Virus record (IMG/VR): IMGVR_UViG_3300037225_000875
Span: 1-22,345 of that record
DNA: 22,345 bases
Reading direction: 5' to 3' (one strand)
Source of the DNA: a virus
Of this stretch, positions 132 to 22,304 are shown piece after piece (the first letter of the stretch is position 1; each line of letters begins with the position of its first letter). A model generated the notes under the pieces. The model saw nothing but the letters and a program-made list of their open reading frames with translations. It did not search any database and was not told where the DNA came from. The translations under genes and the position numbers were made by a program.

Positions 132-1009
132 AAAAAACGCCAAAATCCTTATACCCGAAACTCATTGAGGCAAGTTATCGCCAGTACTTGCTCGGATTAG
201 TTAATGAGATAAAACGGACAATCAGAAAAATAGTATTTCCGGTTATTGACCACGTCAATATTCGTCAAGATGCTCCTCCCCGTAACGAAAATTGGGCTGA
301 TGAAGTTGATAATACCATGCACTACCTGAAAATTAGTTTTGCCTCTATTGTGAATGAACCGAACCTCCGTGCACATTTAATTAGTATTGGAAAAAAGACC
401 AATGCCTGGAACGACAAGGAGTGGCGTAAGGTAATGCACTCAGTACTTAGTGTTGACGTTTTTAAAAAAGAGGCATGGCTTGGTTCTCACTTAAAAGCAT
501 TTGTCAATACAAATACTTCACTCGTTACAAAACTATCAACCGATACGCAACACGAAGTTCGCCGTGTGATTGAAAACGGTATTCGGTCCGGGGATACATC
601 GCGTACTATCAGAGAGGCTTTAATTTCGGAAACCGGATTACGAGGTCTTAACGAAGTACCATGGTTAAATAAAGTTGAAGCGCGTGCTCAATTAATCGCC
701 CGTGACCAAATCGGAAAATTAAATGGTGAACTCACCAATTTACGACAAACAGAACTTGGTATTGAGACCTATTATTGGCGCACCATGGAAGATGAAGTCG
801 TGCGTCCCGAACATGCCGCACTTGACGGCATGCTTTGTCGCTGGGATGATGATTCTGTATACTCCGATGATGATGGGAAAACCTGGCAGGGTCGAACCTC
901 TGAAATGTTTGATGGTAAACCTGGAGAGGATTATCAGTGCCGTTGTTCCGCCGAAGCTAATTTTACCGATGAAGATTTTATCGCACCGGAATTGAGGGAA
1001 GCGGCGTGA
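128..1009 (+). CDS. Mu gpF / SPP1 gp7-like minor head morphogenesis protein
   Basis: The 293 aa product matches the Mu F-like minor head protein family, which sits at the portal and helps head assembly or DNA ejection. The N-terminal 150 residues are mostly helical. The diagnostic part is C-terminal: a YYWRTMEDEVVRPEHAALDG block from about residue 213, then a CRWDD segment, then PGEDYQCRCSAE near residues 265-275. The R..H..LDG and GxxxxCRC arrangement is typical of the family. The start at 128 overlaps the preceding stop (ATGA), and the stop at 1007-1009 overlaps the next start (GTGA). The position immediately before tail-completion genes is as expected. No major capsid gene is in the window, so it must lie upstream. 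Identity is seen from motifs; the role is from family knowledge. Confidence 0.85.
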   Translation: MKKTPKSLYPKLIEASYRQYLLGLVNEIKRTIRKIVFPVIDHVNIRQDAPPRNENWADEVDNTMHYLKISFASIVNEPNLRAHLISIGKKTNAWNDKEWRKVMHSVLSVDVFKKEAWLGSHLKAFVNTNTSLVTKLSTDTQHEVRRVIENGIRSGDTSRTIREALISETGLRGLNEVPWLNKVEARAQLIARDQIGKLNGELTNLRQTELGIETYYWRTMEDEVVRPEHAALDGMLCRWDDDSVYSDDDGKTWQGRTSEMFDGKPGEDYQCRCSAEANFTDEDFIAPELREAA

Positions 1010-1527
1010 GTATTACTACCAGAATAATTGACCATGGATATAATGCCATGTTAAAAGCACATAAAAGCGTTTATACAAAAGTAGGTTTCCCGGAAAATGG
1101 AACTATAGGAACCGGTGTTGAGACAGTAGTTGGTAAATACGGTTCAAAAAGAAAAATGGTAACTGTTCCGGTAGAAACAATGTCCGAAATAGCAACAATA
1201 GCGGCCGTGCATGAGTTTGGTGCTCCAAATAAAAATATACCGGAGCGATCATTTTTGCGAACGACACTTGACGAACACTACGGTGATTTACAGTCATTTA
1301 AAGTACGACAATATCAATTGTTTTTACAGGGAAGTTTTGGACTGAAAGAGGCAATCGGTCGAGTCGGAGAATGGTTAGTCGGAAAAGTTCAAGCGCGTAT
1401 ACGAAGCGGGCCCTTTCAGGTACTTTCTCCAGCGACTCTTGCGGCAAAATTTCCGAAAACGAAACCACTTATTGATACTGGACAATTACTCAATAGTTTA
1501 CAACATGAAGAATACATACAACTCTGA
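1006..1527 (+). CDS. Tail completion / virion morphogenesis protein (HK97 gp10 or Mu gpG type)
   Basis: The 173 aa protein starts with GTG at 1006, overlapping the preceding TGA. It carries the hallmark of HK97-gp10/Mu-G-like head-tail joining proteins: an AAVHEFGAPNKNIPERSFLR segment at about residues 66-85. A C-terminal LIDTGQLLNSLQ follows at about residues 155-166, matching the 'DTGxLxxSI' end of the same family. Such proteins sit between connector and tail and stop the growing tail. ATG starts are absent near the expected N-terminus, so GTG is favoured. It lies second in the head-tail joining block, followed by neck genes, which agrees with the assignment. Confidence 0.8.
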   Translation: MSITTRIIDHGYNAMLKAHKSVYTKVGFPENGTIGTGVETVVGKYGSKRKMVTVPVETMSEIATIAAVHEFGAPNKNIPERSFLRTTLDEHYGDLQSFKVRQYQLFLQGSFGLKEAIGRVGEWLVGKVQARIRSGPFQVLSPATLAAKFPKTKPLIDTGQLLNSLQHEEYIQL

Positions 1528-1657
1528 TATTATGGTTTGCGGTGGTTTAATAATTGGTACAATCATTATCGTACTCATTATTTTATTTTATACGGCCAAT
1601 GAAATGAACGAAGATACACAAATAAAACAGGATTACGAAAATGAGCTTGCTCGGTAA
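1505..1657 (+). CDS. Small single-TM protein inside the head-tail joining block
   Basis: This 50 aa frame begins at ATG 1505 inside the end of the tail-completion gene and overlaps the next gene by 17 bp. After a short polar start it has one strongly hydrophobic segment (CGGLIIGTIIIVLIILFY, about residues 12-29), then an acidic and polar tail. I see no good ribosome binding site, so translation may depend on coupling; ATG at 1532 is an alternative start. A membrane microprotein among virion genes is unusual. It might be a superinfection or lysis accessory, or an artefact, and no function is assigned. The overlaps on both sides and the clean TM pattern favour a real gene. Confidence 0.5.
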   Translation: MKNTYNSDIMVCGGLIIGTIIIVLIILFYTANEMNEDTQIKQDYENELAR

Positions 1658-1976
1658 TATTACTATATCATGTAAACACGTTTCTACCAACTGGGATAAT
1701 GGTAGAGCAAAAGAAACCGTTACGACGGTATTTACTATTGTAGGGTCATTACAACCACCAAAGCAAGCTGATTTAGTGTATGTTCCCGAAGCACGCTGGA
1801 TAAATAAAATGTATAAAATAGTCACGTTTGACACCCTTACCTTGGGAGACCAAAATAACGGAGCGGACCAATTGACCATCGACAACGAGCAGTATGAAGT
1901 CATGTCGGCAGCCAAATGGAAAAATGGACTTTTGTACCATAATGTCTACATAGTAGGATTAGTCCAAGCGCTATGA
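1641..1976 (+). CDS. Head-tail connector / neck protein, probable
   Basis: The 111 aa protein has an ACAGGA ribosome binding site upstream of ATG 1641 and a stop that overlaps the following ATG (ATGA at 1973-1976). The sequence is beta-rich and has no cysteine cluster or TM segment. It includes QADLVYVPEARW near residue 43 and DNEQYEVMSAAKW near residue 82, where a 'Y.V....W..G..Y' rhythm recalls small head-closure or neck proteins. The assignment rests mainly on position between the gp10-like tail-completion protein and the tail terminator. In related myophages this slot encodes a head closure protein. The family could not be confirmed from motifs alone. Confidence 0.55.
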   Translation: MSLLGNITISCKHVSTNWDNGRAKETVTTVFTIVGSLQPPKQADLVYVPEARWINKMYKIVTFDTLTLGDQNNGADQLTIDNEQYEVMSAAKWKNGLLYHNVYIVGLVQAL

Positions 1977-2476
1977 GAACGCAAGAAGATATTGAGGGTG
2001 TTTTATATAATTGGGCAACGGCGATACTGGGGAATACTCCGGTTTTATGGTATCACCAGAATGTCCAGCGTCCTGCCGTCGATTATGTCACACTGCATGT
2101 CCAGTCAGATACCCGGGTCGGGGGACGTGCGTATAAAACTCTCGCGGATACCGATGGAAACATCCAGGTACAAGCTAATCGTGAAATAGTGGTATTTGTA
2201 AAAGCCTATGGGGAAACATCGAAAGATTTATGTCATCTTTTAAGAAATTCCCTTGATCTTCCCAGCGTAACCGAGAGTTTAACGGCGCAAGGAATAGCTT
2301 TTATTGACACTCTTATGGCCATAAGTGATGCTGCCGAAATAGTACAAAATAAATTTGAGGAACGCGAGCAAATGGATTTATTATTTCGATATGCGGAACA
2401 AGATACCGATACCACCGGGTATATTGATAAAGTGGAAGTGCTGGGAAATGATTTGATAACTATTACCATTCAATAA
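1973..2476 (+). CDS. Neck / tail terminator protein (gp12-like, LIC_12616 type)
   Basis: The 167 aa product matches the small alpha/beta terminator proteins that cap contractile tails (phage neck terminator gp12-like family). Seen features are an N-terminal helix with LYNWATAILG and a central beta-strand series VDYVTLHVQSDTRVG (about residues 36-50). A helix then carries KDLCHLLRNSLDLP, followed by a late strand EEREQMDLLFRYAEQ typical of the last sheet. The ATGA overlap with the previous gene, and the AGGAG-preceded sheath gene 12 bp downstream, place it exactly where the tail terminator sits in DUF3383-type myophages. Its partner would be the sheath and tube ends. Confidence 0.72.
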   Translation: MRTQEDIEGVLYNWATAILGNTPVLWYHQNVQRPAVDYVTLHVQSDTRVGGRAYKTLADTDGNIQVQANREIVVFVKAYGETSKDLCHLLRNSLDLPSVTESLTAQGIAFIDTLMAISDAAEIVQNKFEEREQMDLLFRYAEQDTDTTGYIDKVEVLGNDLITITIQ

Positions 2477-2488
2477 AGGAGTTTAATT

Positions 2489-3892
2489 ATGAGTGATGCC
2501 TTGTTTGATATTGTCGATGTAAATATTAATGAAAATGCGTCAACGACCGTTTCCGCACAAGGGTTTTCTTTGGCAATGATTTTGACTCCTGAAGCAACAT
2601 TCGTTTCTCGAACAAAACTTTATGGAAAGGGTGATGCCTACGATCTTGAACTTATCGGCGGAAAGAATTCAGTCGCCTATAAAATGGCGCAGGAGTTCTT
2701 CGCACAAAATCCAAGTCCAGTGCAAATTATGCTCGGTCGTCAAGCTGATCCCGTTATCGCGGCCACATTTAGCGCTGGAGCTTATACCAGTGGAACTATC
2801 GGGTATACTCTCAATGCCGTCGCCGGAACTCCTGTGGCATACAATGCCTCTAAAGCGGGGACGCTTGCCGATCTCGCTACTGCGATACAAGCGGCAATTC
2901 GTTTACTCAATACCGCTGATACCACTTCATCGGCAGTATATAGTAATTCCGTTCTTACAATTACAATGAAAGCAGGTGTTGCTCCTATTCAAATTACGCT
3001 TGACTTAACTAATTGTGTCGGTGGTATGGTTTTGACCAGTCTTATTGCAACGTCACAGGAAAGTACAGAGGATGTTGGAGACGCGCTGACCGCGTGTCGC
3101 CTCGAATCCACTGCGTGGTTCGGTTTACTTATTACGGATAGGACACTCGAAGATGTAGAGGATGCCGTTATTTTTGCAGAGAATAATGGCTGTTATTTTC
3201 TTACATCTTCAGCGGACCATACCAATATAACCGATCTCGCTAAAGGGACCGATGTTACATCTATCGCATGGTTCATTCAAAGCGGAAGTTATTCCCGGAG
3301 TCGCTGCGTTTATAATTCAACAGAAAATCATATTGATGCCGGACTCATGGGTGCGATTCTTTGGCGCAATCCTGGAACCTATACTTGTCAATTTAAAACA
3401 ATAGTTGGTGCAGTGGCGGACATACTTACGACTGCCCAGCATACCAATGCTCATGCAAAAAATTGTTTGACATACGAAACGGTACATGGTATTGATATGA
3501 TATGGCAACAAGAAGATAGTGCCAAGGGATACATTGACTATCAAATTTTTAAAAGCTGGTTGATGTATCGTGAAGGCGAGTCGGTTCTTTCCGCAATTTC
3601 AGGAAGTGGCAAGACGCCATATACGAGTGCGGGTATTATGGCGGTCGCCAATGCGGTCGAAAAGCCACTTATCGTTGCGTCAAGTAACGACCCTACTTCC
3701 CCAGCGATAGGCGCAAAAGAATTTGACGCAACGACCGGTTTACAAAACGGGGGATATTATTTGATAATTCCAACACTCGCGGCGTCAAGACTTGCCCGTA
3801 CATCTTCGCGCCAATTACCGAATATGCAATTTGTGGCTTTCTATTCCGGCGCAATTGAAACAGTCCAGATTAATGGTAACATAAATTTTTAA
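2489..3892 (+). CDS. Contractile tail sheath protein (DUF3383 type)
   Basis: The 467 aa protein follows a strong AAAGGAG site. The sheath polymerises around the tail tube and contracts to drive it through the envelope. The N-terminal 65 residues form a strand-rich domain ending in a GKNSVAYKMAQEFFAQNPSP helix. A central insert of about residues 85-205 (ATFSAGAY... to DLTNCVGGM) resembles the extra outer domain of DUF3383 sheaths. The C-terminal end has the conserved GGYYLIIPTLAASRLARTSS block and finishes with FVAFYSGAIETVQINGNINF, the typical closing strand of the family. The tube gene follows with its own ribosome binding site. Length and position fit the family. Confidence 0.88.
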   Translation: MSDALFDIVDVNINENASTTVSAQGFSLAMILTPEATFVSRTKLYGKGDAYDLELIGGKNSVAYKMAQEFFAQNPSPVQIMLGRQADPVIAATFSAGAYTSGTIGYTLNAVAGTPVAYNASKAGTLADLATAIQAAIRLLNTADTTSSAVYSNSVLTITMKAGVAPIQITLDLTNCVGGMVLTSLIATSQESTEDVGDALTACRLESTAWFGLLITDRTLEDVEDAVIFAENNGCYFLTSSADHTNITDLAKGTDVTSIAWFIQSGSYSRSRCVYNSTENHIDAGLMGAILWRNPGTYTCQFKTIVGAVADILTTAQHTNAHAKNCLTYETVHGIDMIWQQEDSAKGYIDYQIFKSWLMYREGESVLSAISGSGKTPYTSAGIMAVANAVEKPLIVASSNDPTSPAIGAKEFDATTGLQNGGYYLIIPTLAASRLARTSSRQLPNMQFVAFYSGAIETVQINGNINF

Positions 3893-3903
3893 AGGAGTGA
3901 ACC

Positions 3904-4350
3904 ATGAGTAATATCCAAACGCTGATTCCAAAGTTGGGAATACTAACCTTCGATGGTGTTCCCATAAATGGATTTTCAGCGGATTCGACGGTTGAAGCTG
4001 AGCGCGCAAGTGATGCTTTTGAAAAACACGTTGGTACACAGGGCGAAGTGTCCCGTATTAAAAATGCCGATATGTCCGGACACGTTACAATCTCTCTTGC
4101 ACAAACAAGTCCATCAAATGATTATCTATCGGCTAAGGCGCGGATGGACGAACTCACTGCAAACGGTATTGGCCTGTTGACGTTCGTCGACTTGAGTGGT
4201 ACTATCGGACAACCGACGAGATTTTCCGGTATGGCGTGGGTTAAAAAATTGCCAGCACTGGAAGAAGGAAAAACGATTAAAGACCGCAAGTGGGTTTTTG
4301 ACGTTGCATATTTTGATGTATGGCTTGCCGGAAATATGCCGTCACTTTAA
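3904..4350 (+). CDS. Tail tube protein (DUF3277-like)
   Basis: The 148 aa product is a tail tube subunit, forming the inner tube enclosed by the sheath. The sequence shows LTFDGVPINGFSADSTVEAE at residues 14-33, then a FEKHVGTQGEVSR motif and SGHVTISLAQTSPSNDYLS. This is the strand-loop pattern characteristic of DUF3277 tube proteins ('F..HVG.dGEvSR', 'sG.vti.L.QtSPSN..L'). The AAAGGAG site at 3892-3898 precedes the start. The gene order sheath, tube, chaperone, tape measure is canonical for contractile tails. High copy number is expected from the strong ribosome binding site. Confidence 0.88.
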   Translation: MSNIQTLIPKLGILTFDGVPINGFSADSTVEAERASDAFEKHVGTQGEVSRIKNADMSGHVTISLAQTSPSNDYLSAKARMDELTANGIGLLTFVDLSGTIGQPTRFSGMAWVKKLPALEEGKTIKDRKWVFDVAYFDVWLAGNMPSL

Positions 4351-4380
4351 TACACATACAGTATAGGAGGAGCTACTGGT

Positions 4381-4830
4381 ATGGAGGTCAAAACAAAAAC
4401 AATCAACGGGAAGGAAATCATGGTGACCCCGTTCACCGGATTTATTTCCCAGCGTTATCTGACAAAGGTAGTGAAGTTATTTGGCCCTGGAATTGCCGGA
4501 GTACTTTCTGGTAATTCTATGGATATTCTTAATTCCGATCTCTCTGTTTTTGGTGATGCTATTGGTCGTCTAACCGACAGACTCGACCCCGATGAACTTT
4601 CTAAATTTATTCTTGATCTTCTCTCAATGGTTCGTATTAACAAAGTGGAAATTACGCAGGAGAGTTTTGATCTTGAATTCCAGGGTAATTTATCCTTCAT
4701 GTATAAAATACTCTGGTTTGTCATGGAGGTGAACTGGGGCGATTTTTTCGGAAAGAGTGGTTTCGGCGAAATGATATCAAAACTGAAACCACAGTCGACA
4801 AAATCTATGAAAGGCTCGACAAGGAACTAA
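4381..4830 (+). CDS. Tail assembly chaperone, short (unshifted) product
   Basis: The 149 aa protein is preceded by a strong TAGGAGG site and lies between tube and tape measure, the fixed position of tail assembly chaperones that coat the tape measure during assembly. The mostly helical body includes SQRYLTKVVKLFGPGIAGVL, DPDELSKFILDLLS and an FMYKILWFVMEVNWGDFF end near residue 120. Just after this comes the slippery heptamer at 4743-4749; the unshifted ribosome reads a polar tail (KLKPQSTKSMKGSTRN) and stops at 4828-4830. A two-protein system made by programmed frameshift is the known arrangement for this family (as in lambda G/GT). Function is by family and position. Confidence 0.8.
   Translation: MEVKTKTINGKEIMVTPFTGFISQRYLTKVVKLFGPGIAGVLSGNSMDILNSDLSVFGDAIGRLTDRLDPDELSKFILDLLSMVRINKVEITQESFDLEFQGNLSFMYKILWFVMEVNWGDFFGKSGFGEMISKLKPQSTKSMKGSTRN
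4743..4749 (+). promoter_or_regulatory. Programmed -1 frameshift site in the tail chaperone gene
   Basis: In the chaperone frame the codons read GAT TTT TTC, giving the heptamer T TTT TTC, a perfect X XXY YYZ slip site. The -1 frame is open from 4707 to 4979, so a slip here is productive. Downstream coding in that frame looks like real protein. I did not find a clear stem-loop or pseudoknot by eye. Confidence 0.8.
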
Positions 4831-4979
4831 TGGATGAAATGTCATGCTGGAGATTAGTACTGGCAGGTTTTGCGACAAAAGAGGAAATTGAAAGGTCGTA
4901 TAGTTTGGTCGATGTAATGAAAGCCAATGCAATTTTGGATTTGAAAAACGAATTAGAATCAAATATAAGCGTCGTTTAA
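4749..4979 (+). CDS. -1 frame extension of the tail assembly chaperone (GT-like C-terminus)
   Basis: After slipping at 4743-4749 the ribosome continues at 4749 in the -1 frame for 76 codons, giving a fused product of about 199 aa encoded by 4381-4979. The extension includes TVDKIYERLDKELMDE and MSCWRLVLAGFATKEEIER, then SLVDVMKANAILDLKNELES. This W-R-L-V..G-.AT..EIE..(W/Y)SL.D....NA.LD pattern is what the T domain of tail chaperones usually looks like, so the frame is selected as protein. Reading it as an independent 49 aa gene from ATG 4830 is possible, because that start overlaps the TAA. However, coding-like sequence upstream of 4830 and the perfect heptamer favour frameshifting. Confidence 0.75.
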   Translation, partial: RKEWFRRNDIKTETTVDKIYERLDKELMDEMSCWRLVLAGFATKEEIERSYSLVDVMKANAILDLKNELESNISVV

Positions 4980-5002
4980 CCGCTTAAGAAGGTCGTACTA
5001 AC

Positions 5003-6346
5003 ATGATTGTAAGGGAACTCATCAATTTAATCGGATTCGAGGTGGACGAGGGTGCTATTGCGTCCACAGAATCAAAGGTTAAACAGTCCTTTGAGAGCAT
5101 CACAAATCTTACTCGTCAAGCGATGACTGTTATCGGTTCTGGTATGATGGTGCATTTTGCTAAAGGGCTTTCCGATAAATTTACCGAAGTACGAGTCACT
5201 CTTGCCGATATTAGAAGCAATCTCGCGAACACTGGAAACGCTGCTGGGAAAACCGCAGAACAACTCAACGCAATGGCCGGTAAACTTTCTGAAGGAGTTA
5301 ATTATTCACGTGACGATATTTTGAAGGCCGAGGCACAATTTACAAAGTTTGGTACAATCACAAAAACACATTTTGAAATGGCAACAAAGGCCGCTATTGA
5401 GTTTGCGGCGATGTCAAAAACCAGTGTTGAGTCAGCGTCACACCGAATTAGTTTATTAATGGAGCATCCCGAACGACTTCGTACACTGGAAAGGGAGGGT
5501 GTTCATTTTTCGTACTTGGAAACGCAGCGTATTCGGCAGATGTACCAAGTCGGAAATTTACAGGGTTCCCAGGATAAACTTTTACAGGCAATAATTCAAC
5601 ATACCAAAAATTACGCCGAGAACGAATACAAGGCGGGTGATGCCTCAAAGGAATTTGCGAAGCAAGTCATGGAATTAAAAATACAATTTGGAGAAGCATT
5701 ATTTCCAATTGTTAAAAAGGTGAATGAAATGCTAACCGTTTTGATTAAAGTATTAAAGGACATTTCACCAATTTGGAAAAGCCATATTGTTCAAGTGGTT
5801 GGGTTCATCACCGTTTTAACTACGCTTTCCTCTTTACTTCCGATAGTAGCGCGGGCAATCACGATGATAGGTCTTTCCCTTAAAAGTTTGAATTTACCGT
5901 TATTACTCCTCAGTATCGCTTTTGTCCTTCTCGCTAAAGATTTTGATAAATGGAAAAATCATCAAGAATCCGGTCTGGGAAAGCTGCTCGGAAAATACGA
6001 AGTCTTTGTTGATCGTTTACGGTCACAACTTAAAGGGTTATCGATGATATGGGAAGGTCTGACCTCCGGTAATATGGAGAAAGTACGGGTAGGTGGCGAG
6101 TTAGTCGCGGAAAAATATTCGTATGCACACCCGCTGGGGAAAGACTATGATATAAAACAACAAAATATCCAGCGTATGCAGTATAGTATTAGACACCATC
6201 TTTCACCACAGAAGAGCAGTATCACAAATCACACTACATTTAATATTCATACAACAGGTTTACCAGAACATCAATTAAAACAGATACCGGCAATAATTGA
6301 TAAACACCTTTCGGAAAAGTATCGACAGATTGCGGCGGTGAATTAA
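5003..6346 (+). CDS. Tail tape measure protein (short)
   Basis: The 447 aa tape measure sets tail length and is packed in the tube. The N-terminal helical region (about 1-230) has the repetitive Ala/Glu/Lys heptad character of the family, with AQFTKFGTITKTHFEMATKAA and TSVESASHRISLLMEHPERL. A hydrophobic stretch at about residues 262-312 (GFITVLTTLSSLLPIVARAI, then LNLPLLLLSIAFVLLA) matches the membrane-active segments typical of tape measures. The C-terminal part is polar and ends with LPEHQLKQIPAIIDKHLSEK. By the usual rule of roughly 0.15 nm per residue it would fit a short tail of about 65 nm. The stop overlaps the next start (TAATG). Confidence 0.85.
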   Translation: MIVRELINLIGFEVDEGAIASTESKVKQSFESITNLTRQAMTVIGSGMMVHFAKGLSDKFTEVRVTLADIRSNLANTGNAAGKTAEQLNAMAGKLSEGVNYSRDDILKAEAQFTKFGTITKTHFEMATKAAIEFAAMSKTSVESASHRISLLMEHPERLRTLEREGVHFSYLETQRIRQMYQVGNLQGSQDKLLQAIIQHTKNYAENEYKAGDASKEFAKQVMELKIQFGEALFPIVKKVNEMLTVLIKVLKDISPIWKSHIVQVVGFITVLTTLSSLLPIVARAITMIGLSLKSLNLPLLLLSIAFVLLAKDFDKWKNHQESGLGKLLGKYEVFVDRLRSQLKGLSMIWEGLTSGNMEKVRVGGELVAEKYSYAHPLGKDYDIKQQNIQRMQYSIRHHLSPQKSSITNHTTFNIHTTGLPEHQLKQIPAIIDKHLSEKYRQIAAVN

Positions 6347-9237: not shown

Positions 9238-10382
9238 GTAATTTCGGAGTGAAGTCAACCGGATTTGTGCTGAAAAGACTGCCTGATATTTTAGCCGATT
9301 TACAAGCGGCAAACAGAGCGGTGTTTGGAAATGATCTTGACATTTCCGCTAATTCTGTTGATGGTGAGCGTATAGGAATTGAAGCGGCACAAATGACAGA
9401 ATTATGGGAAATAGCACAAGATATTTATAATGATATGTATCCTAATTCAGCGAGCGGTGTGGGTCTTGACTTGGCTTGCGAAGCAAGTAGCGTAAAACGG
9501 AGAGAGGCCACCAAAACCACCGTCATAGCTTCACTCAGTGGTACCAACGGTACGAGCACGGGCTCCGGTTTTCAGGTAGCGACAAATACGGGATTTATTT
9601 TTGAGAATGATGCTCCCGTTTCATTGACGACCGACACGTATACCGCTTGCCCCATGAGCGCCATTATTGCCGGAAGGGAAGTTGTAGGCATTGGTGATTT
9701 ACAAAATATTGCCACGCCAGTGTCAGGAATAGCCGCGGTGACTAATCTCGTACCTGGCATTCCAGGACTGGACACAGAGACCGATGTGGATTTACAGGTG
9801 AGACGAAGGCAAATGGTTTCATCCAGTTTTATGTCGGTTGATGGCAAAGCAAGTCGTATGCTAAATGAAGTCCCAGGTATCACTTATTGTTCGGTGTTTG
9901 AGGATACGATTAATCACACAGTTAATTTTGTCGTTGACGGTTCGGCAAGCGCTCAGTCCATCGGAAATGAAATATGGAAAATACGTACGGATGGAATAGC
10001 AACAACAGGGAGTCAGTCCGTTACCGTTGTCGATGTCAATGGGAATTCTCACACAATAAAATACAGTATACCCGTATCAATACCGGTATACGTTTCCGCC
10101 ACTGTTTATAAAGACCCTCAAATCCCATTTCCCAGCGACGGAGAATCACTTATTAAATCAAACATTGTCGCGGACTCGATCGCCCTGGTTATGGGAGAAA
10201 CGGTTTTTGTTGAAAAATATAAAGGGTCGATTTACCGTGTCCCGGGTGTTGGTATCGTAACACTAAGCATGACATTTAATTCTAATTACGTGACTGACGC
10301 AGTTACTACCGATTTAATTATGCCTTATCCATCATATAGAGCGACGTTTGATATCGCTAATATCACGGTAACTATTATATGA
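9234..10382 (+). CDS. Baseplate J-like wedge protein (Mu gp47 / gp6-like)
   Basis: The 382 aa product is the large wedge subunit that forms the baseplate ring. Seen features are the N-terminal FVLKRLPDILADLQAANRAV helix and LWEIAQDIYNDMYPNSASGV near residue 62. GLDLACEASSVKRREATKTT is the family's 'LD..a...gi.R..a..a'. A LVPGIPGLDTETDVDLQVRR segment (about residues 175-195) contains the 'G...E.D..lR.R' hallmark. A NEVPGITYCSVFED element marks the second domain. It overlaps the gp25-like gene upstream and the DUF2612 gene downstream by ATGA. Partners would be the gp25-like wedge and the DUF2612 protein. Confidence 0.87.
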   Translation: MSNFGVKSTGFVLKRLPDILADLQAANRAVFGNDLDISANSVDGERIGIEAAQMTELWEIAQDIYNDMYPNSASGVGLDLACEASSVKRREATKTTVIASLSGTNGTSTGSGFQVATNTGFIFENDAPVSLTTDTYTACPMSAIIAGREVVGIGDLQNIATPVSGIAAVTNLVPGIPGLDTETDVDLQVRRRQMVSSSFMSVDGKASRMLNEVPGITYCSVFEDTINHTVNFVVDGSASAQSIGNEIWKIRTDGIATTGSQSVTVVDVNGNSHTIKYSIPVSIPVYVSATVYKDPQIPFPSDGESLIKSNIVADSIALVMGETVFVEKYKGSIYRVPGVGIVTLSMTFNSNYVTDAVTTDLIMPYPSYRATFDIANITVTII

Positions 10383-12106
10383 CAATATCCTATTTGAATA
10401 ATCAGTACGTGCCAAGTAACACGGGCACAAAATGCGACTATGACCCTGTCAATAACATTTTGTATATTGCTGATGGTACAACTTTAAAAGCGTTATCATA
10501 CAGTAACTCCGGATATACTGTCTTAGGAAGTGTCACGGTCGGAGATAATATTCAGAGTTTACGATATAAAAATGGCAGGATATTTATTGTATACGGTGAC
10601 ACTCCTTCAACACTGAGAATTTATACCTTCGATGGGGCAAATTTTCATCTTGTTACGTCGTCAGATACATCAACTGTTGGCCATATAATTTGGTACGACG
10701 TCGACACAAACGACGATTCAACCGTGGTTTTTCTCTGTGGCTTCAATCACATTTACGGCGGTGCGCTTTATGTTTTATTATTTGATGGAAGCAATTTGAC
10801 ATCACCGATGAATAATTATTTAACTTATACCAATTACTTTATAACTTTGATTAAATATTATAATGGCGTTTTGTTTTGCTTAGAAAATTTAGCGAATATT
10901 GTTGCTTTTACAATCGATGCAGATGGTTTCACAAATGTCGCATTTTGCGCTATTGGTACTCACGAAAATAATTTACAATATTTAGAAATTGTTAATAACC
11001 GAATTTTTATTAACGGTAAAGTGTTTTCATATAATGGAACCGGTACGATATCTCTAATTGGTACAATCCAGACTTCCGGTAATTTATCAATCTCAATGCG
11101 ATATCTTTTTGGATTAGTTATCTCCGCATGTGATGATGGGTTATATACCTATACATATAATTTTGATAATGATACTTTCCTGTTAAAGGACTCATATACT
11201 AACCATGGGTTTATTAATTTTAGCATTGACAAATATGGCTTGTTTCATGGAAGTACTTTTGTGGGAAAGAGTATTCAAGCATTCGATCTCGGCATTGTTC
11301 AGTCAGTAAACTTTATTGCCGCGCCATTAGTGGCACAAACGATGCAGCTGATAAATTTTACTAATTTATCTCAAGGATGTAACAACTCAATATGGAATTT
11401 TGGAGACGGTTCTTCCAGTGTAGAATTTTCCCCAACTAAGTATTATACCGCGCCTGGTATTTACACGATAACTCTGTCAGTTAATGGTATACTGGGAGAA
11501 GCTCAAGAAAAAACACGAGTGGCATATATTATAATCATACCAAAAGAAAGTAATTTATTTATTGAGCAGTTTAAAAAAACAAATTCCATTCCACGATTAT
11601 TAATTCCATTCATTTTAGAAATGCAGGAATTACAACAAGTTTTTACCGATCTCAAATTATTACGAGCGATTTCCACCGCGACAGGGAAACAGCTGGACAA
11701 TATTAGTGATATTAGACGTATTACCGGACAAAGCGATACGGATTACCGTGCTGCTATTCAATTACATATTAAAATGATAACCTCTCCCAGCGACCCGGAT
11801 ACCATAATAAATAATCTTCAATATTTTCTTAATGCAGGAGTGTGTACAATTGACCATGACGAACCGGCACCAGCAACAATTTCAATACATGCCAATACTA
11901 CAACTACGGCCTCCAGTTCCGCCGTCAATAACGTGAAACAACTAAATGAAATTAAGGGTGCCGGAATCGCTTTATTTGTTTCTTTAAATGATCTAACACC
12001 ATTGCATATCATTAATGATGACTCTTCAACACCTTCGCGGGGTCTTGGTTTATCTGAAATGAGTTCACTTTATCAAGGCGGTCAAATCGCCGAAAGGATT
12101 TTATAA
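10379..12106 (+). CDS. Baseplate protein: N-terminal beta-propeller-like region, PKD domain, C-terminal DUF2612
   Basis: The 575 aa protein is a composite. Residues about 390-575 match the DUF2612 baseplate/tail protein that normally follows baseplate J: IPRLLIPFILEMQELQQVFT, ATGKQLDNISDIRRITGQSD, TDYRAAIQLHIKMITSPSDP and a GAGIALFVSL end. Before it, residues about 312-385 carry a PKD-like Ig fold with the classic SIWNFGDGSSSVEFSPTKYY and APGIYTITLSVNG motifs. Residues 1-300 are repeats of strand-turn-strand blocks such as DPVNNILYIADGTTLKALSY, YKNGRIFIVYG and VNNRIFINGKVFSYNG, resembling a seven-bladed propeller. Ordinary DUF2612 proteins lack the first 390 residues. The addition could form a peripheral receptor-binding or sugar-binding element. 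The DUF2612 and PKD calls are firm; the propeller is inferred. Confidence 0.78.
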   Translation: MTISYLNNQYVPSNTGTKCDYDPVNNILYIADGTTLKALSYSNSGYTVLGSVTVGDNIQSLRYKNGRIFIVYGDTPSTLRIYTFDGANFHLVTSSDTSTVGHIIWYDVDTNDDSTVVFLCGFNHIYGGALYVLLFDGSNLTSPMNNYLTYTNYFITLIKYYNGVLFCLENLANIVAFTIDADGFTNVAFCAIGTHENNLQYLEIVNNRIFINGKVFSYNGTGTISLIGTIQTSGNLSISMRYLFGLVISACDDGLYTYTYNFDNDTFLLKDSYTNHGFINFSIDKYGLFHGSTFVGKSIQAFDLGIVQSVNFIAAPLVAQTMQLINFTNLSQGCNNSIWNFGDGSSSVEFSPTKYYTAPGIYTITLSVNGILGEAQEKTRVAYIIIIPKESNLFIEQFKKTNSIPRLLIPFILEMQELQQVFTDLKLLRAISTATGKQLDNISDIRRITGQSDTDYRAAIQLHIKMITSPSDPDTIINNLQYFLNAGVCTIDHDEPAPATISIHANTTTTASSSAVNNVKQLNEIKGAGIALFVSLNDLTPLHIINDDSSTPSRGLGLSEMSSLYQGGQIAERIL

Positions 12107-12663
12107 TGTCAGTAACTCCATTTACCGAGCCGTCAAAACTTCCTTACTGGACAATTGACCCGGCGACACAATTACCTGTAGACACGGTTGGTTCTACCTA
12201 TGGTCAAGTCCCAGCTGCCGAACCTTCCGATAGTAAAAAGGGAACAGGATTTGTAGAAAAAGAATATCCACCACGACAGGATCTAAATTGGCTTTTCAGG
12301 ACGATTTGCCAATGGATAGGATGGATTGTACAGCAGATTGGTTCGCTACCGCCGTTCCAGCTTTCTTACCCGACTAATGGGTTAGAAATATTAGGTACTT
12401 ATTGGGTGAGCAGTAGCACCCTTGACGGAGGAAACTTGTGCACACTCCCTTATCCTACTGGATTTGGATTGTCAAAAAGCAATGTTTTTGTTATTGGTGC
12501 AACAGTTGACGTCACCGGAAATCCATCAATTGCACAGCCGTACTATGCGAGCGTTTCTTCTTTTATGAAAATCACCTATGACGATACAAATATTTACGTT
12601 CAATTGGGTTCTGGTAACTATACCGGGGCCTTTATAAAAGTCGTATTTTGGAAAATAGCATAA
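12106..12663 (+). CDS. Small tail fibre-like protein
   Basis: The 185 aa protein starts in a TAATG overlap with the DUF2612 gene. Its first 70 residues have the signature of fibre N-termini that attach to the baseplate: PYWTIDPATQLPVDTV, then KGTGFVEKEYPPRQDLNWLF, where 'P.RqdlNwLF' is common to many phage fibre proteins. The remainder is strand-rich with Gly/Thr/Ser, ending GAFIKVVFWKIA. It is far shorter than most fibres, so it may be an adaptor to which longer fibres (15440-18171) bind. No chaperone gene is recognisable nearby. Confidence 0.65.
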   Translation: MSVTPFTEPSKLPYWTIDPATQLPVDTVGSTYGQVPAAEPSDSKKGTGFVEKEYPPRQDLNWLFRTICQWIGWIVQQIGSLPPFQLSYPTNGLEILGTYWVSSSTLDGGNLCTLPYPTGFGLSKSNVFVIGATVDVTGNPSIAQPYYASVSSFMKITYDDTNIYVQLGSGNYTGAFIKVVFWKIA

Positions 12664-12668
12664 ATTAT

Positions 12669-13097
12669 ATGCAATTCTATAAACCAGTTCACTTTCAGGC
12701 ATACGAATTTTTACCACCGGAAATTTACGAAGTATACGGTGACGCCGGGTTAATTGCCATGGACGCACGTATTCTATGGACATTGGATTCTTTGCGTAAT
12801 GCTATTAATGTTCCAATTATTGTAAATACATGGTTTAATGAAGGAGATTTTTTCCAGCGTGGCCTAAGAACCGATGCAAAACTTCTCGAAGCAACCCCTT
12901 TGTCACAGCACCGTTTTGGTCGCGCCGTTGATTTTGATATTCAGGGCATGTCAGCAGAGGATTTCAGGCAGGAAGTTAGAGATCAAAAATACTCACTATC
13001 ATTATTGTACGTTACTCGAATTGAGGATGGTATAAACTGGGTACATTTAGATTGTGCAAACACGGCGAGCACGGAGATAGAATTTTTTCATGCCTGA
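12669..13097 (+). CDS. Endolysin candidate, M15-family zinc peptidase
   Basis: I place the start at ATG 12669 (142 aa), 5 nt after the fibre stop; a TTG at 12648 in the same frame would add seven residues. The protein shows the M15 (D-Ala-D-Ala carboxypeptidase / L-Ala-D-Glu endopeptidase) zinc site. SQHRFGRAVDFD gives H81 and D88 (SxHxxGxAxD), and WVHLD gives H126. The early FYKPVHFQAYEFLPPEIY segment is also typical of small phage members. It probably cuts peptidoglycan cross-bridges at lysis, since it sits with several small membrane proteins. No signal peptide is present, so it would need a holin. A virion-bound role is less likely. Confidence 0.82.
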   Translation: MQFYKPVHFQAYEFLPPEIYEVYGDAGLIAMDARILWTLDSLRNAINVPIIVNTWFNEGDFFQRGLRTDAKLLEATPLSQHRFGRAVDFDIQGMSAEDFRQEVRDQKYSLSLLYVTRIEDGINWVHLDCANTASTEIEFFHA

Positions 13098-13560: not shown

Positions 13561-13824
13561 ATGTTTAGTTCAATTTATTTGTTTTGTGTTTCGCATCAGG
13601 TACTTGTTTCTGCAATAACCGGTGGTGTATTTCTTCTGTTAGGTATTTTTATTCCAGGTGACAAATTATGGAATGCCATCAAAATGGCAGGATTCACGAC
13701 ATCTCAATTTATCAGAAAATGCTTCGGCGCAAAAGCGGAAGAGTTTGCAGATAAAGCGGCGGATGCCTTTGACGCTGGGATGAAGTCTGATGATACAAAG
13801 GTTCCGCCTGAGCAGAAAAAATAA
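13561..13824 (+). CDS. Small membrane protein, possible holin
   Basis: The 87 aa protein starts 3 bp after the previous stop and has a good AAAGGAG site. One long hydrophobic segment spans about residues 12-30 (VLVSAITGGVFLLLGIFIPG). A helical, charged C-terminus follows (KAEEFADKAADAFDAG) and ends with a Lys-rich tail. A single TM with a charged tail next to an endolysin fits a class III-type holin or a holin accessory, but there is no decisive signature. Confidence 0.6.
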   Translation: MFSSIYLFCVSHQVLVSAITGGVFLLLGIFIPGDKLWNAIKMAGFTTSQFIRKCFGAKAEEFADKAADAFDAGMKSDDTKVPPEQKK

Positions 13825-13880: not shown

Positions 13881-14333
13881 ATGGGAGATATATCCGATCG
13901 CGAGTTTGAAAAACTAAATACGACACTTGTGGACTTTATAGAAACCTCCGTCCAGCGATATGTGGAGTTCCATAATTCACTTTCTATTCAGGGCGAGGAT
14001 ATCAGCGCAATTAAGGTCAATTTACAAAAAATAGAATTTCGTCTGAAAGACGGCGACAGGCGTATTGACGGACTTGAAAAAACCGTTGATGAAAATATGA
14101 TAAACGCGGATAAAGTTATTGATACCACCACCAGACAAGTGTATCTTGATTGTGCTCAAAAACACGCTGTTGCCTTTCGGGGCGAAATTGATAGATTAAT
14201 AGCTTTATGGAAAAAAAAGTGGAATATATTTTGGTTTAAAATATTTAAAATTACCGCATGGATAGGCGGAATTATTGCTATTGGCGTCGGATTTTCTCAA
14301 ATTTGTAAAGCTTTCCACTGGTTAGGATTTTAA
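13881..14333 (+). CDS. Coiled-coil protein with C-terminal membrane anchor (lysis region)
   Basis: The 150 aa protein has an AGAGG site before ATG 13881. Residues about 5-100 form long helices with heptad spacing, including SAIKVNLQKIEFRLKDGDRR and IDGLEKTVDENMINADKVID. A basic and aromatic stretch (WKKKWNIFWFKIFK) is followed by one TM (ITAWIGGIIAIGVGFSQI, about residues 125-142). A coiled coil plus a C-terminal anchor resembles XhlA-like or t-SNARE-like phage membrane proteins used in lysis. A spanin role is conceivable but unproven. The next tiny TM gene begins 3 bp after the stop. Confidence 0.6.
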   Translation: MGDISDREFEKLNTTLVDFIETSVQRYVEFHNSLSIQGEDISAIKVNLQKIEFRLKDGDRRIDGLEKTVDENMINADKVIDTTTRQVYLDCAQKHAVAFRGEIDRLIALWKKKWNIFWFKIFKITAWIGGIIAIGVGFSQICKAFHWLGF

Positions 14334-14335
14334 TT

Positions 14336-14440
14336 ATGTGGAAAGACATGCTTAATTTTTTAGCAATGATCTTAATGGGATGCTTTATAGGAAGTGTTAT
14401 TGCTGTTGTTGTCCTATGGTTGGTTCATTTAGTATTATGA
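14336..14440 (+). CDS. 34-aa single-TM microprotein
   Basis: This frame starts at ATG 14336, two bases after the preceding TAA, and ends at TGA 14438-14440, which overlaps the next ATG (ATGA). Nearly the whole product is hydrophobic (MLNFLAMILMGCFIGSVIAV, then VVLWLVHLVL). It could be a holin, antiholin or leader. The precise coupling at both ends supports it despite its size. Confidence 0.55.
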   Translation: MWKDMLNFLAMILMGCFIGSVIAVVVLWLVHLVL

Positions 14441-14823
14441 AAACTTTACTTTTAATATTATCGTTTGTACTCTGTTGTCAATCAGCAGATAATATTTATA
14501 CCATAGCAACCAAAATACAAACTATGTACGGTGGGAGTATTGTTCGCCCTAATGCTATTCAACCGATATCAGTTTCAAACATTCCTACAATTTTTTTAAT
14601 TCCTATCGACAGTAGTTTTAATGGGAAAGATACTGGTGCGGCATTTATAAAAATGTGGAGATTAAAATACACTGTAAAGGGCGAAACTTTATATTTAACA
14701 ATATACTCAGTCGATACACTTTGTTTTATTGCGGGACCAGAAGCAATGACTTATTTGAATAAGGGATATAATATAAAATTATCAAAATTAACCACTGCAA
14801 ACGTATCAACATTATCAAAATGA
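14437..14823 (+). CDS. Secreted protein of unknown function
   Basis: I use ATG 14437, in an ATGA overlap with the microprotein, giving 128 aa. The first 20 residues (MKTLLLILSFVLCCQSADNI) are a clear signal peptide: K, a leucine-rich core, then a small-residue cleavage area around CCQSA. The two cysteines make a lipoprotein conceivable, but a proper lipobox is absent. The rest is beta-rich and ends with KLTTANVSTLSK. No family is recognised. The stop overlaps the next start by ATGA. Signal peptides are unusual for virion proteins, so it may act in the host envelope. Confidence 0.6.
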   Translation: MKTLLLILSFVLCCQSADNIYTIATKIQTMYGGSIVRPNAIQPISVSNIPTIFLIPIDSSFNGKDTGAAFIKMWRLKYTVKGETLYLTIYSVDTLCFIAGPEAMTYLNKGYNIKLSKLTTANVSTLSK

Positions 14824-15425
14824 AAAAATTAATAATATTATTATTATTACTTACATCAAATCTATTGGCTGCGATTGCATTAGATCAATCACAACCAACA
14901 TATACTGTTAATATATATTTACAGATGCGAGTTGCGGCATCGGTATTGTGGAATGCGAATAGTTTTGTTCCTACTGTGACTGCAATATGTGATAAAATTA
15001 CAATACGATTAAGTAAAGTTGGTTTACCGACTGGTCATGTCTATTTGACTATTTGTGCTGATAATGCTGGCAAACCTGGAACACCATTAATTGGTTCTAA
15101 CTCTGTTGATGTGGCTACATTGTCCACCGATCAAACAAATGGTGCATTGGTTGATTTTGGCTTCGGGGACGCTCCGCCTGCTTTAGTAGCAAATACAAAA
15201 TATTGGTTTAAATACGATGGGGATTATGCTATATCAAACGTAAATTACGCTCAAATATTCCTTAAGACTCCAGGCGGTTCGACTTTCGGATATTATAACG
15301 GCTCCTCATTTGTAACTCCTTATGTTACTGCTGATGCCTGTTATTTTGAATACTATGTTGTGCCTGTGACAATTACTCATTCTCATAGACTTTACACTTC
15401 ATACAAAAAGTTTGGCTTCAGATAA
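14820..15425 (+). CDS. Signal-peptide-bearing beta-sandwich protein
   Basis: The 201 aa protein starts with MKKLIILLLLLTSNLLAAIA, a textbook Sec signal peptide with cleavage near residue 18. The mature part looks like a jelly-roll of the kind found in extracellular and fibre-associated proteins: DKITIRLSKVGLPTGHVYLT (about residues 58-77), DNAGKPGTPLIGSNSVDVAT, then VANTKYWFKYDGDYA. The 'v.l.l.k.G.P.g...v.i..d..G.Pg..l' rhythm is widespread in secreted carbohydrate-associated domains. It is coupled by ATGA to the gene before and lies 14 bp upstream of the large fibre gene. A role at the host surface or an exported adhesin is an inference. Confidence 0.6.
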   Translation: MKKLIILLLLLTSNLLAAIALDQSQPTYTVNIYLQMRVAASVLWNANSFVPTVTAICDKITIRLSKVGLPTGHVYLTICADNAGKPGTPLIGSNSVDVATLSTDQTNGALVDFGFGDAPPALVANTKYWFKYDGDYAISNVNYAQIFLKTPGGSTFGYYNGSSFVTPYVTADACYFEYYVVPVTITHSHRLYTSYKKFGFR

Positions 15426-15439
15426 GGAGAATTTTAATT

Positions 15440-17425
15440 ATGTGTTCCATCATTTATGACTTAAGACCAAGACCAAAACTGACAAAACTATTTGTTTTAT
15501 TGTTATTAATTATCTTTATAGTCAACGGACAATATCGTAAAAATGTCGCAAGGCAGGTTTTACAGTTTGCAATACACGATACTACGTTGACTCCTCCAGG
15601 GTTGATAACCGCAAACGATTCATCGGCATTGTCTGCACAAGTGTATAAGGATTCTGCCGTTGGAGTAGTCGCGTCGGGAAAATTCGGCCCTTTGCGTAAT
15701 CCATTAGCCGGATTGACGGGATATTACTATTTCATTGATTCAACAGCTGCCGATTTTAACGCCGATGCTTTAACATTTACTTTTGCAAGCACAACGGCAA
15801 ATCATATCTGCGATCCTGTATTTATCAAAACACAGGGTATAGTTGGGCTTGATTCCTTCACGGTTGTCAGGGCGCAAAAGATCGATTCGTTAAAACACGT
15901 TACGGCGGATGTTGCAGTTGCAAGTACGGCATTATCCACGGCAAACTGGACAACCACGAGGTCAGGTTATTTGGATACTCTTAATACGGCAGTCGCTAAA
16001 TCTGCAAAACTAACAACACTTGCATCTTCTGTTGCTGGTGACAGCATAAATAACCTGACTCACTCCACTTCCGCGTCTTTAACTTCCGATAGTTTGGCTG
16101 TTACAAAACTTAGAGCATCAATGACGCAGGATAGTACCAATGTTCTTTTAATGGCAAAAGCGACAAGTCTTACTGGAGATAGTAATAATGTTCTAACAAA
16201 TAAAACCAAGTTGACTGCACTTGCGGCCTCAGTTACTGGCGATAGTTTAACGAACGATTCCATTATGAGGCACACTAATCGAATTGGTTTTGATGCTTCG
16301 AGTTATGTTATGTCAAACGCACAAGCGATGGGCTCATCCTTACTCTATGCGGTACAACACCCGATACAAGTATCTATTGCTGGAGACTCAATAAACAATT
16401 TGGCTAATGCCAAAGCGATAAATCTTACTGCTGACTCGTTACTTGTCATTCAATTAAGGACATCGTTGACAGGAGATTCTACAAACAATTTAACCAATAC
16501 AAAAACAACAGTATGGACAAATAACAGAGCGGGGTATTTGGACACGCTTCAGACAGCGATTGCTAAAAGCCCAGGGCAAACAACCACTCTTAATTGTATA
16601 CGTGGTGACTCGTTAAATAATATCGGGCATGCCACTATCGCAAATCAAGTCATTATCACCGGAATCACTCGAACGGATAGTTTACGCAACACAACCAATT
16701 TACTAAATACGACATGGACTGACCATAAAGCTACATATATTGATACCAATATATCAAAAATTAGTGGTGGAGGTGGTGGGGGGAGTGGTGGGAGTTCTGT
16801 CACGTCAATAGATTCGGCATTGTCTATTAATCATGGCAATGGTGCCTGGGGAAGTCTGCTGACATATTCTAATTCGGTACTTTTTTACACAATGGATTTA
16901 AACCATCTGCGTATACCCAGTGTTTTCATTACTTTTAAAAATAAATCAGGATCGAATATTCAGGATTTAAGCACTAATCTAAACGGATATGGCGTAACTA
17001 CCCTTCCCAGCGACACCGTTGTTATTTATCCATGGGTTTCAGGATACTCGTTTATAACGGATACCATAATTCTTACTGGAAATAAAATTGATACGTTATA
17101 CGGTTCTCAAATATCAATTACACCACCAGCGTCCGGTTGTCAAACTCTTTACGTTCTAAAATCAGACATAGGATTAATAGGGGATACCACCGCGGTTTTA
17201 ACGGCACAAATATTTACTGAAAACACTTTTTCAGGACAAGCCGTACTCACTGGGAAGAAAATAATAGCAAAAGACAGCGGGACGTACTTTTATTGGAGTA
17301 TTGCGAAAGGCGTAAAAATACAAATAATAGGAAATAATCCGTCCACACGAAAAGAGTTCCTTAATGAAAATATCACCATAACAAATGACGACACCAAAGC
17401 CCTTAGTACCTATACACCTTTTTAA
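15440..17425 (+). CDS. Large repeat-containing tail fibre-like protein with N-terminal membrane anchor/signal
   Basis: The 661 aa protein begins with a basic stretch and a hydrophobic segment (KLFVLLLLIIFIVNGQYRKN, about residues 16-35), so it carries a signal peptide or anchor. Residues about 40-145 form a strand-rich domain (TGYYYFIDSTAADFNADALT). Residues about 150-440 repeat GDSxNNLT-type blocks and twice show 'W(T)..R(S/A)GYLDTL.TA.AKS', the coiled-coil/triple-helix motif of phage fibres. A Gly-rich linker (ISGGGGGGSGGSS, about 441-453) separates a C-terminal beta-rich region containing DTVVIYPWVSGYSF. The ribosome binding site is AAGGAG. A fibre role is strongly suggested by the repeats; the signal sequence is unexpected for a phage fibre. 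Confidence 0.68.
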   Translation: MCSIIYDLRPRPKLTKLFVLLLLIIFIVNGQYRKNVARQVLQFAIHDTTLTPPGLITANDSSALSAQVYKDSAVGVVASGKFGPLRNPLAGLTGYYYFIDSTAADFNADALTFTFASTTANHICDPVFIKTQGIVGLDSFTVVRAQKIDSLKHVTADVAVASTALSTANWTTTRSGYLDTLNTAVAKSAKLTTLASSVAGDSINNLTHSTSASLTSDSLAVTKLRASMTQDSTNVLLMAKATSLTGDSNNVLTNKTKLTALAASVTGDSLTNDSIMRHTNRIGFDASSYVMSNAQAMGSSLLYAVQHPIQVSIAGDSINNLANAKAINLTADSLLVIQLRTSLTGDSTNNLTNTKTTVWTNNRAGYLDTLQTAIAKSPGQTTTLNCIRGDSLNNIGHATIANQVIITGITRTDSLRNTTNLLNTTWTDHKATYIDTNISKISGGGGGGSGGSSVTSIDSALSINHGNGAWGSLLTYSNSVLFYTMDLNHLRIPSVFITFKNKSGSNIQDLSTNLNGYGVTTLPSDTVVIYPWVSGYSFITDTIILTGNKIDTLYGSQISITPPASGCQTLYVLKSDIGLIGDTTAVLTAQIFTENTFSGQAVLTGKKIIAKDSGTYFYWSIAKGVKIQIIGNNPSTRKEFLNENITITNDDTKALSTYTPF

Positions 17426-17436
17426 AGGAGAGAAAA

Positions 17437-18171
17437 ATGATTCTTTACAAAAATGTAGCAAGCCAGAAGCTACCGATTTACGCGTACGTTCTTGCTACCG
17501 GTGCACCTGTAACCGGACACGCTTCGGATATCACTTGTCAGATAAGCAAGGACTACGGGTCACACGCGGCAACGGGGACAGCACATCCTACCGAATTGGA
17601 TTCTACGAATCTTCCCGGGTGGTATTATTTCCCCTTGACGCAGGCGGAAACGAATTGTGATTGTTTAATCGCTTCCCCGGTTGATGGTAATGTTTCTCCG
17701 GCAATTATTCAACCGGTCAAGATTGAGACACTGAAAGTGACGGCGAACGGAAATCTTCTTGCCAGTTTGCAGGAGGTTCTCACTACGGCAGTTACCGCCC
17801 AGATGTCCGCGGCATGGGTAAAATTCTTCGACGTCGCAACCTCTGTTTTGACTACTGCGTCGGTAAATCAGGGAGCAGATAGTAATGTAATTCTCTCTAA
17901 CGGGACTTACGGGTTATCTGCTTTACATACCGAAGTTGCCAAGGACGCGACCGTGAGTAAACCAGGAACCGCGCAGACTATTGATTTAACCATTACGACG
18001 CCAGACGGAATTACGATTAGTTATGCCCTTGAACTTCTTGCAGCGTTGGTGAATGGAAAATATACCCTTAATACTCCGTCTACCGGGCAGATAACATTTT
18101 ACAAACGAAACAGCACGTCAGTATTGACGGTTGTGGCCGTCGCTGCTGCTAATAGAACGAGAGTGTCGTAA
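17437..18171 (+). CDS. Tail fibre / tip protein
   Basis: The 244 aa protein has an AAAGGAG site and starts 11 bp after the large fibre gene. Its first 95 residues resemble a beta-sandwich found at the N-terminus of many phage fibre proteins: KLPIYAYVLATGAPVTGHAS, DITCQISKDYGSHAATG, then LPGWYYFPLTQAETNCD ('G.y.f.LTqaEtn.d'). The middle is helical (ASLQEVLTTAVTAQMSAAW), and the end is a small strand domain (GQITFYKRNSTSVLTVVAVA). The same sandwich appears to begin the 661 aa protein after its anchor, so the two may share an ancestor or interact. It probably contributes to host recognition. Confidence 0.62.
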   Translation: MILYKNVASQKLPIYAYVLATGAPVTGHASDITCQISKDYGSHAATGTAHPTELDSTNLPGWYYFPLTQAETNCDCLIASPVDGNVSPAIIQPVKIETLKVTANGNLLASLQEVLTTAVTAQMSAAWVKFFDVATSVLTTASVNQGADSNVILSNGTYGLSALHTEVAKDATVSKPGTAQTIDLTITTPDGITISYALELLAALVNGKYTLNTPSTGQITFYKRNSTSVLTVVAVAAANRTRVS

Positions 18172-21985: not shown

Positions 21986-22075
21986 CACCAACGTTCGACA
22001 AATGGCCGAAGTACCGGCCTATAATATTTCAACTACCTACAGTGCTGCCGGTATTTTGGCCTTTGTTTGTTGTAG
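21986..22075 (-). other. attC-like recombination site (cassette with Lar-like gene), clearest example
   Basis: The coding strand opens with CTACAAC at 22069-22075 and closes with GTTGGTG at 21986-21992. ACAAA, GGCC, AAAA, TACCGGC on the left pairs with GCCGGTA, CTTC, GGCC, A, TTTGT on the right: two stems separated by an unpaired 4-4 spacer, with one extrahelical A. This matches R, L, spacer and extrahelical-base design of attC sites. Length 90 bp. Confidence 0.82.
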
Positions 22076-22304
22076 GCTGTTGACGAGCGCACTCCTTAGT
22101 GTCCGCCCGCCGATTCCATTCTTCCAATGCGTCTTTATGCCATTTTGCATCTTCACTATCATCATATCCCGTTCTGACTTCAGGTGCTTGAGCGCCACAA
22201 TCGATACATTGAGCTGCACCCCATTTGCACGAATCGGTGCCGTAAAGAAAATGTACCCCGCGTTTTGAACCGCAAAATGGGCATTCTTTTTCTTCGGCGG
22301 GCAT
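22029..22304 (-). CDS. Lar-like zinc-ribbon protein (restriction alleviation type)
   Basis: The 91 aa protein starts at ATG 22304 with AAAGG eight bases upstream, the first gene after the core at the window edge. It has CPFCGS at residues 8-13, CIDCGAQAP near residue 33 and ALEEWNRRAD near residue 59. This is the order found in Lar-family phage and prophage proteins ('CPFCG...C..CGa.gp...A...WN.R'), linked in the family to alleviation of type I restriction. Paired CxxC motifs indicate a zinc ribbon. The last 23 residues (ending NKGQNTGSTVGS) are encoded by attC and are not part of the family. An anti-restriction role is family-based; many homologues are untested. Confidence 0.72.
   Translation of the reverse strand: MPAEEKECPFCGSKRGVHFLYGTDSCKWGAAQCIDCGAQAPEVRTGYDDSEDAKWHKDALEEWNRRADTKECARQQPTTNKGQNTGSTVGS

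Follow-up and report, generated by a model that had tools for sequence, protein, structure and literature searches.

Why should three consecutive genes in the fibre locus of an uncultivated tailed phage begin with what look like export signals? A first-pass annotation had described, in the encoded proteins of 128, 201 and 661 residues (here p128, p201 and p661), a basic stretch followed by a leucine-rich core, and the reading frames and N-termini are as it described them. The window, meaning the whole stretch of DNA that was analyzed, is a linear virus record of 22,345 bases. Its genes from position 128 to about 12,100 make up the head and tail block of a contractile-tail phage, as judged from PHROG matches and positions; head morphogenesis (phrog_324, 1.4e-51), sheath (phrog_205, 4e-66) and hub (phrog_196, 2e-54) proteins are found there together with tape measure, baseplate wedge and J-like proteins. 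The window represents a myophage's structural block, and the host is presumably diderm. The genes at issue are the following, where L numbers denote our labels for viral loci:

12106-12663, + strand: 185-aa tail-fibre base gene, used as the bait for relatives' fibre loci (tblastn to 13 relatives, E 3e-13 to 2e-6)
12648-13097, + strand: M15-type peptidase endolysin (phrog_894 endolysin, 6.6e-18; homologue in L252, 8e-38)
13561-13824, + strand: 87-aa holin-like transmembrane (TM) protein (TM segment at 7; no family match)
13881-14333, + strand: 150-aa protein with a C-terminal TM segment (at 116), probably lysis-related; PHROG matches sub-threshold only
14336-14440, + strand: 34-aa single-TM protein, ATGA-coupled to p128
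14437-14823, + strand: p128 (128 aa), signal-like N-terminus by rule; ATGA overlap with 14336-14440
14820-15425, + strand: p201 (201 aa), signal-like N-terminus by rule; choice-of-anchor R-like domain (NF041539) at 58-133
15440-17425, + strand: p661 (661 aa), fibre-like, S/T-rich, with GDSxNN repeats and, by rule, an N-terminal signal or anchor; SD site
17437-18171, + strand: p244, fibre-like, by sequence comparison a likely paralogue of the p661 N-terminal domain, without a signal (rule not passed)

The L252 homologue of the endolysin lies directly 3' of the L252 fibre gene. In the window, a 111-aa protein at 18360 lies 3' of p244, and past 18.7 kb the strand switches to small genes, many of them cysteine-rich; a Lar-like (restriction-alleviation) gene is found among these at the right end (22029-22304, - strand; PF14354, 2.4e-8). 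A baseplate-adjacent 575-aa protein (10379-12106, + strand) carries a PKD domain (PF18911, 8.8e-9) inserted 5' of its conserved C-terminal part, with residues 393-540 matching baseplate families; its relative in L252 has 214 aa only.

Signals were called by a rule of our own, not by SignalP, that demands a positive n-region, a 9-residue core (mean Kyte-Doolittle at least 2.2, no charged residues) and a small-residue cleavage site. Exactly three of the 27 window proteins tested pass, namely p128, p201 and p661, and the other 24 fail. Each core is more than composition, because shuffling a protein's own first 60 residues yields a pass in only 4.8% (p128), 7.8% (p201) or 3.8% (p661) of trials; a single signal core is, by itself, not conclusive. 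The signal-like N-terminus of p128 reads MKTLLLILSFVLC, and that of p201 reads MKKLIILLLLLTSNLLAAIA, with predicted cleavage before LDQ. In p661 the hydrophobic core lies at about 17-28 and the basic residues at 9-16 rather than at the extreme N-terminus, and further basic residues follow the core, so that a cleaved signal and a membrane anchor look alike here. Reading by eye finds no canonical lipobox in the trio (p128 has Cys13/14, p201 no cysteine in its signal region, and p661 has Cys2 alone). Past the signals, no further TM segment is present in any of the three, and family profile searches match none of them to outer-membrane or sorting-signal families or to the PEP-CTERM signal.

The ATG of p128 overlaps the stop of the 34-aa gene (ATGA at 14437), that of p201 overlaps the p128 stop (ATGA at 14820), and a strong ribosome site, TAAGGAG, stands 10 nt 5' of the p661 ATG at 15440, while start codons downstream of the cores have SD matches of at most 3 bases. 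The couplings and the SD site thus place the signals inside the genes and make the starts credible. All three proteins show the n-region, core, cleavage site and credible start of Sec export, p661 with its ambiguity between signal and anchor, and on these sequence grounds their export is likely. No promoter or terminator of their own stands out (24 promoter-like sites versus 20.2 expected), which, with the ATGA coupling, sets the trio apart from classical morons. The low GC of p128 (31%; GC3 0.22) and p201 (36%; GC3 0.24), against a mean GC3 of 0.37, suggests acquisition.

The same virus can be followed upstream. L168, which shares a record with L250, is 99.97% identical to window positions 127-6077, and L249 is 99.99% identical to L250 over 8,153 bases. 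Together L250 and L249 add terminase, portal (Pfam Phage_portal_3, 8.3e-63), protease, decoration-like and capsid genes, some of these names resting on position and similarity to relatives' maps, and then a fourth signal-like gene. Its product, p165 (165 aa, MKKVLFILFAALMLYAAVPS...), is encoded directly 3' of the major capsid gene and ahead of the head-completion genes, with AAGGAG before the start. We found no relatives of p165 in phage records, and in the viral collection only the same virus (1 of 50 records, its own). Under a stricter form of the rule, p165 and the trio are the four that pass among 35 proteins of at least 60 aa in the known ~30 kb of the virus, for a binomial P of 7e-5 at the shuffled false-positive rate and 1.5e-3 at the rate of relatives' structural modules.

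Three other features of this upstream region were observed. The C-terminal ~170 residues of the portal (L250:1680-3776) appear by eye to be leucine-rich-type repeats, Pfam matching the portal part only. The called terminase reading frame (L250:363-1580) has a hydrophobic start that overlaps the preceding gene; the gene was probably called too long, a caution for signal-peptide surveys. A TnpB-type IS605-family insertion (L168:4876-6223; OrfB_IS605, 1.3e-29; Cas12f1-like TNB, 2.5e-23) lies between the head-completion and head morphogenesis genes, at a site uninterrupted in the window (~127-131) and at which L249 ends exactly.

What the exported candidates resemble is partly virion and partly surface protein. 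Residues 58-133 of p201 match choice-of-anchor R (NF041539) at E 8.7e-6 and 25.8 bits, below the cut-off of 30, and no C-terminal sorting signal is recognised in p201; "choice-of-anchor" domains take their name from surface proteins with differing sorting signals. The p201 domain also resembles a P22 gp10-like "phage stabilization protein" (UOF80530; 31.9% over 91 aa, E 3e-4) and recurs in a 652-aa protein of L251, and these phage relatives are without a signal peptide. Nine bacterial genomes of candidate hosts did not contain p201. A search of 50 viral records for choice-of-anchor R returned nothing, as it did for the controls, and so carries no weight. In p661, serine and threonine make up 24% of residues; the GDSxNN repeats reported by the first-pass annotation occur as four exact copies, and GDS six times. 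Its residues 34-111 align with residues 5-77 of p244 at a composition-corrected 25.8 bits, a score reached by none of 1000 shuffles (best shuffle 25.0). The uncorrected E-value of 2e-5 reflects a tiny database and no composition correction, and the uncorrected score of 35.0 equals that of the best uncorrected shuffle (35.0); the homology appears weak. The shared part is N-terminal in both proteins, not C-terminal, and a two-sequence profile of it matches nothing outside the window in the relatives' loci searched. For p128 there is no family match above cut-off and no convincing relative. AlphaFold2 models made without alignments were too poor (mean pLDDT 45.7 for p201, 44.0 for p128) for a fold search.

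The first-pass annotation had proposed an exported host-surface system built from fibre domains. Export signals read from sequence, sound starts, the signal of p165 and the genuine surface-protein types in relatives' structural modules bear out the export part, and a virion- or fibre-type domain does stand behind a signal in p201 and p661; the notion of one system finds no such backing, there being no sequence similarity among the three proteins. It had also counted homologues beginning without the hydrophobic segment against the proposal, and these do exist at the level of domains: p244, the fibre-like counterpart of p661, and the relatives of the p201 domain, UOF80530 included, all start without one. 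Since these genes are not the same and hold the domain in other surroundings, they point to gain or loss of a signal rather than to a wrong start.

Is the arrangement conserved? Direct searches yielded little or nothing in the way of close relatives of p201, p661, p244, the endolysin or baseplate J, and no viral contig carrying the trio. Relatives were reached only when a head protein (A1) and a tube protein (A3) served, after alignment, as baits; 160 viral loci were fetched in this way, and p661 was matched in 0 of 50 relatives' records. The trio, which the first-pass annotation had suggested seeking in related prophages, does not occur in the fibre loci examined in 13 relatives and is therefore not a conserved feature of the fibre locus. 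Within 6 kb downstream in those loci only one of 93 distinct genes passes the signal rule, and that one (143 aa, with a second TM segment) sits in the holin position.

Relatives' head modules present a different picture, with 13 signal-like genes out of 595, spread over 10 of 73 loci, where shuffles lead one to expect ~3.7 genes; tail modules have 4 of 604. The head-module count excludes L168 as well as tube proteins (GFADG/GFSDG/GGVP/GGIP starts), which were taken for false positives, and loci that share a capsid stretch enter it a single time; some of the 13 genes are weak, and those of L017, L083 and L219 look like false positives. Among the strongest cases, L201 has three consecutive signal-like genes 3' of the capsid gene (77, 134 and 383 aa), the last encoding a basic tail besides its C-terminal TM segment, and L016 has two 5' of its portal gene. 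A small signal-like gene is common to L013 and L014, and L014 also encodes a 548-aa exported-type protein weakly like polysaccharide deacetylase, below the Pfam cut-off. Homologous lipoprotein-like genes occur between the head morphogenesis and protease genes in L041 (10855-11337) and L073 (4174-4758).

A further strong case consists of homologous 197-217-aa proteins at two positions in head modules (L056:14006-14659, L077:7981-8574, L084:7741-8394), flanked by phage genes on the same strand. Against a Pfam PEP-CTERM cut-off of 20.7 bits, the L056 protein scores 27.6 and the L084 protein 22.4, that of L077 being linked by homology only. Since PEP-CTERM signals sort exported proteins by their C-terminus, the L056 and L084 proteins, at least, are probably destined for the host envelope or for the outside. 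The L084 protein has no match in 50,697 phage records, and the portion of the literature available to the search held no paper on phage PEP-CTERM proteins. Sequence comparison gave no sign of a common origin for p128, p201, p661, p165 and the exported proteins of relatives; it grouped significantly only L013/L014, L041/L073 and L056/L077/L084.

The reading that we prefer, at a probability of roughly 0.4, is that p128, p201 and p661 are late-operon cargo, exported through Sec and probably altering or masking the host surface. We infer a single message, shared with the lysis and fibre genes, and actual export by the host Sec pathway, and likewise the location, binding and function of the products. 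Most likely p128 and p201 would lose their signals by cleavage and pass into the periplasm or to the outside, while p661 would be either cleaved or kept by its N-terminal anchor. The fibre- and surface-type domains would then most likely bind host surface structures late in infection, altering or masking them, which may save progeny from being wasted on the dying cell or on debris and may keep competitors away. A simple receptor decoy is not favoured, because p661 and p244 share their N-terminal and not their C-terminal part. Also counting against the preferred reading are the lack of conservation of the trio, the want of a lipobox and of outer-membrane or sorting-signal families, and an apparent late timing where T5 makes its exclusion factor early (PMC9586334).

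Proteins of this kind are already known. In the available portion of PMC9586334, Llp of T5 is an exported exclusion factor, made early, whose gene is adjacent to and downstream of that for the receptor-binding protein pb5; for small siphophages, the available part of PMC11990801 gives as a general rule that exported exclusion proteins are coded beside receptor-binding genes. Such proteins block competing phages and keep progeny from being lost on debris (PMC9586334, PMC11990801). Like the lipoproteins of superinfection exclusion, Llp (T5) and Cor (T1, phi80), which are coded beside receptor-binding genes, the trio would consist of exported phage proteins, and, adjoining fibre-like p244, it may lie next to a receptor-binding gene; but Llp is a small, early-made lipoprotein, while the proteins here are larger and fibre-like, lack by eye the lipobox of Llp and Cor, and lie in an apparently late block. 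Lambda Lom, an outer-membrane barrel, and similar morons lie within tail regions and encode exported proteins of the envelope. The trio shares with them the presence of export genes in a tail region, and differs in having no barrel family match and none of the standout promoter and terminator by which a moron is set off between conserved phage genes. Compared with the exclusion proteins, the trio differs in size, want of a lipobox, fibre-like make-up and apparent late timing.

Other explanations draw on the same evidence. An export detour of virion components, which would wait in the periplasm or at the surface and attach at lysis, or act as host-glycan-binding fibres released with the virions, suits the p201 domain relatives in stabilisation and other large phage proteins, the place of p661 in a fibre locus with a domain in common with p244, and the position of p165 between capsid and head-completion genes; we judge it unlikely, since the fibre genes of 13 relatives have no such signals and no tailed-phage fibre is known to take an export route. 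Improbable too is lysogenic-conversion cargo, that is, exported adhesins or envelope proteins that benefit the lysogen and have no tie to receptor masking. The PEP-CTERM and deacetylase-like proteins of relatives are of a kind that changes the cell surface, and the low GC and GC3 of p128 and p201 suit acquired genes, but neither an integrase nor a repressor came to light among those window genes that were looked at, and the trio, for which no separate promoter or terminator stands out, is tied by ATGA coupling to the late operon.

It is distinctly improbable that these are late lysis accessories, continuing the endolysin-holin cassette and helping to break the envelope in a spanin-like role. 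Their place is directly 3' of the M15 endolysin and the TM genes, with coupling to the 34-aa TM gene, and L252 has a signal-bearing TM protein at the corresponding place; against this, p201 and p661 look beta-rich and S/T-rich, and the lipobox (absent by eye, p128 included) and later TM segments that mark two-component or unimolecular spanins are missing. Wrong starts or chance, leaving the hydrophobic stretches untranslated or non-functional, can be nearly dismissed: over-long calls do create hydrophobic N-termini, as in the called terminase gene of this very virus, and 4-8% of own-composition shuffles pass, but the ATGA couplings, the SD site, gapless packing and four signal-like cases in one virus speak against this reading.

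Late surface-altering cargo, the preferred reading, admits a more far-reaching version, doubtful as a whole, in which some myophages have turned virion fibre modules into secreted host-surface proteins: in the fibre locus a fibre paralogue (p661, next to p244) would have gained a signal peptide, and so would a virion-type domain (p201). With the capsid-adjacent exported genes, these would constitute a late "envelope coat" programme, recurrent in kind, differing in content between phages, and including PEP-CTERM proteins handed to the host exosortase.

More than the trio itself, it is the wider pattern of exported-type proteins concealed within structural blocks that is of interest. Searches for exported phage proteins usually look for early exclusion factors or separately transcribed morons; the exported-type genes described here are found inside head and fibre blocks, where they are easily annotated as virion proteins. 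The sequence evidence suggests that genes within the structural block of the phage may serve to coat or alter the surface of its host. If this is true, part of the "hypothetical structural protein" set of metagenomic phages would act on the host surface.
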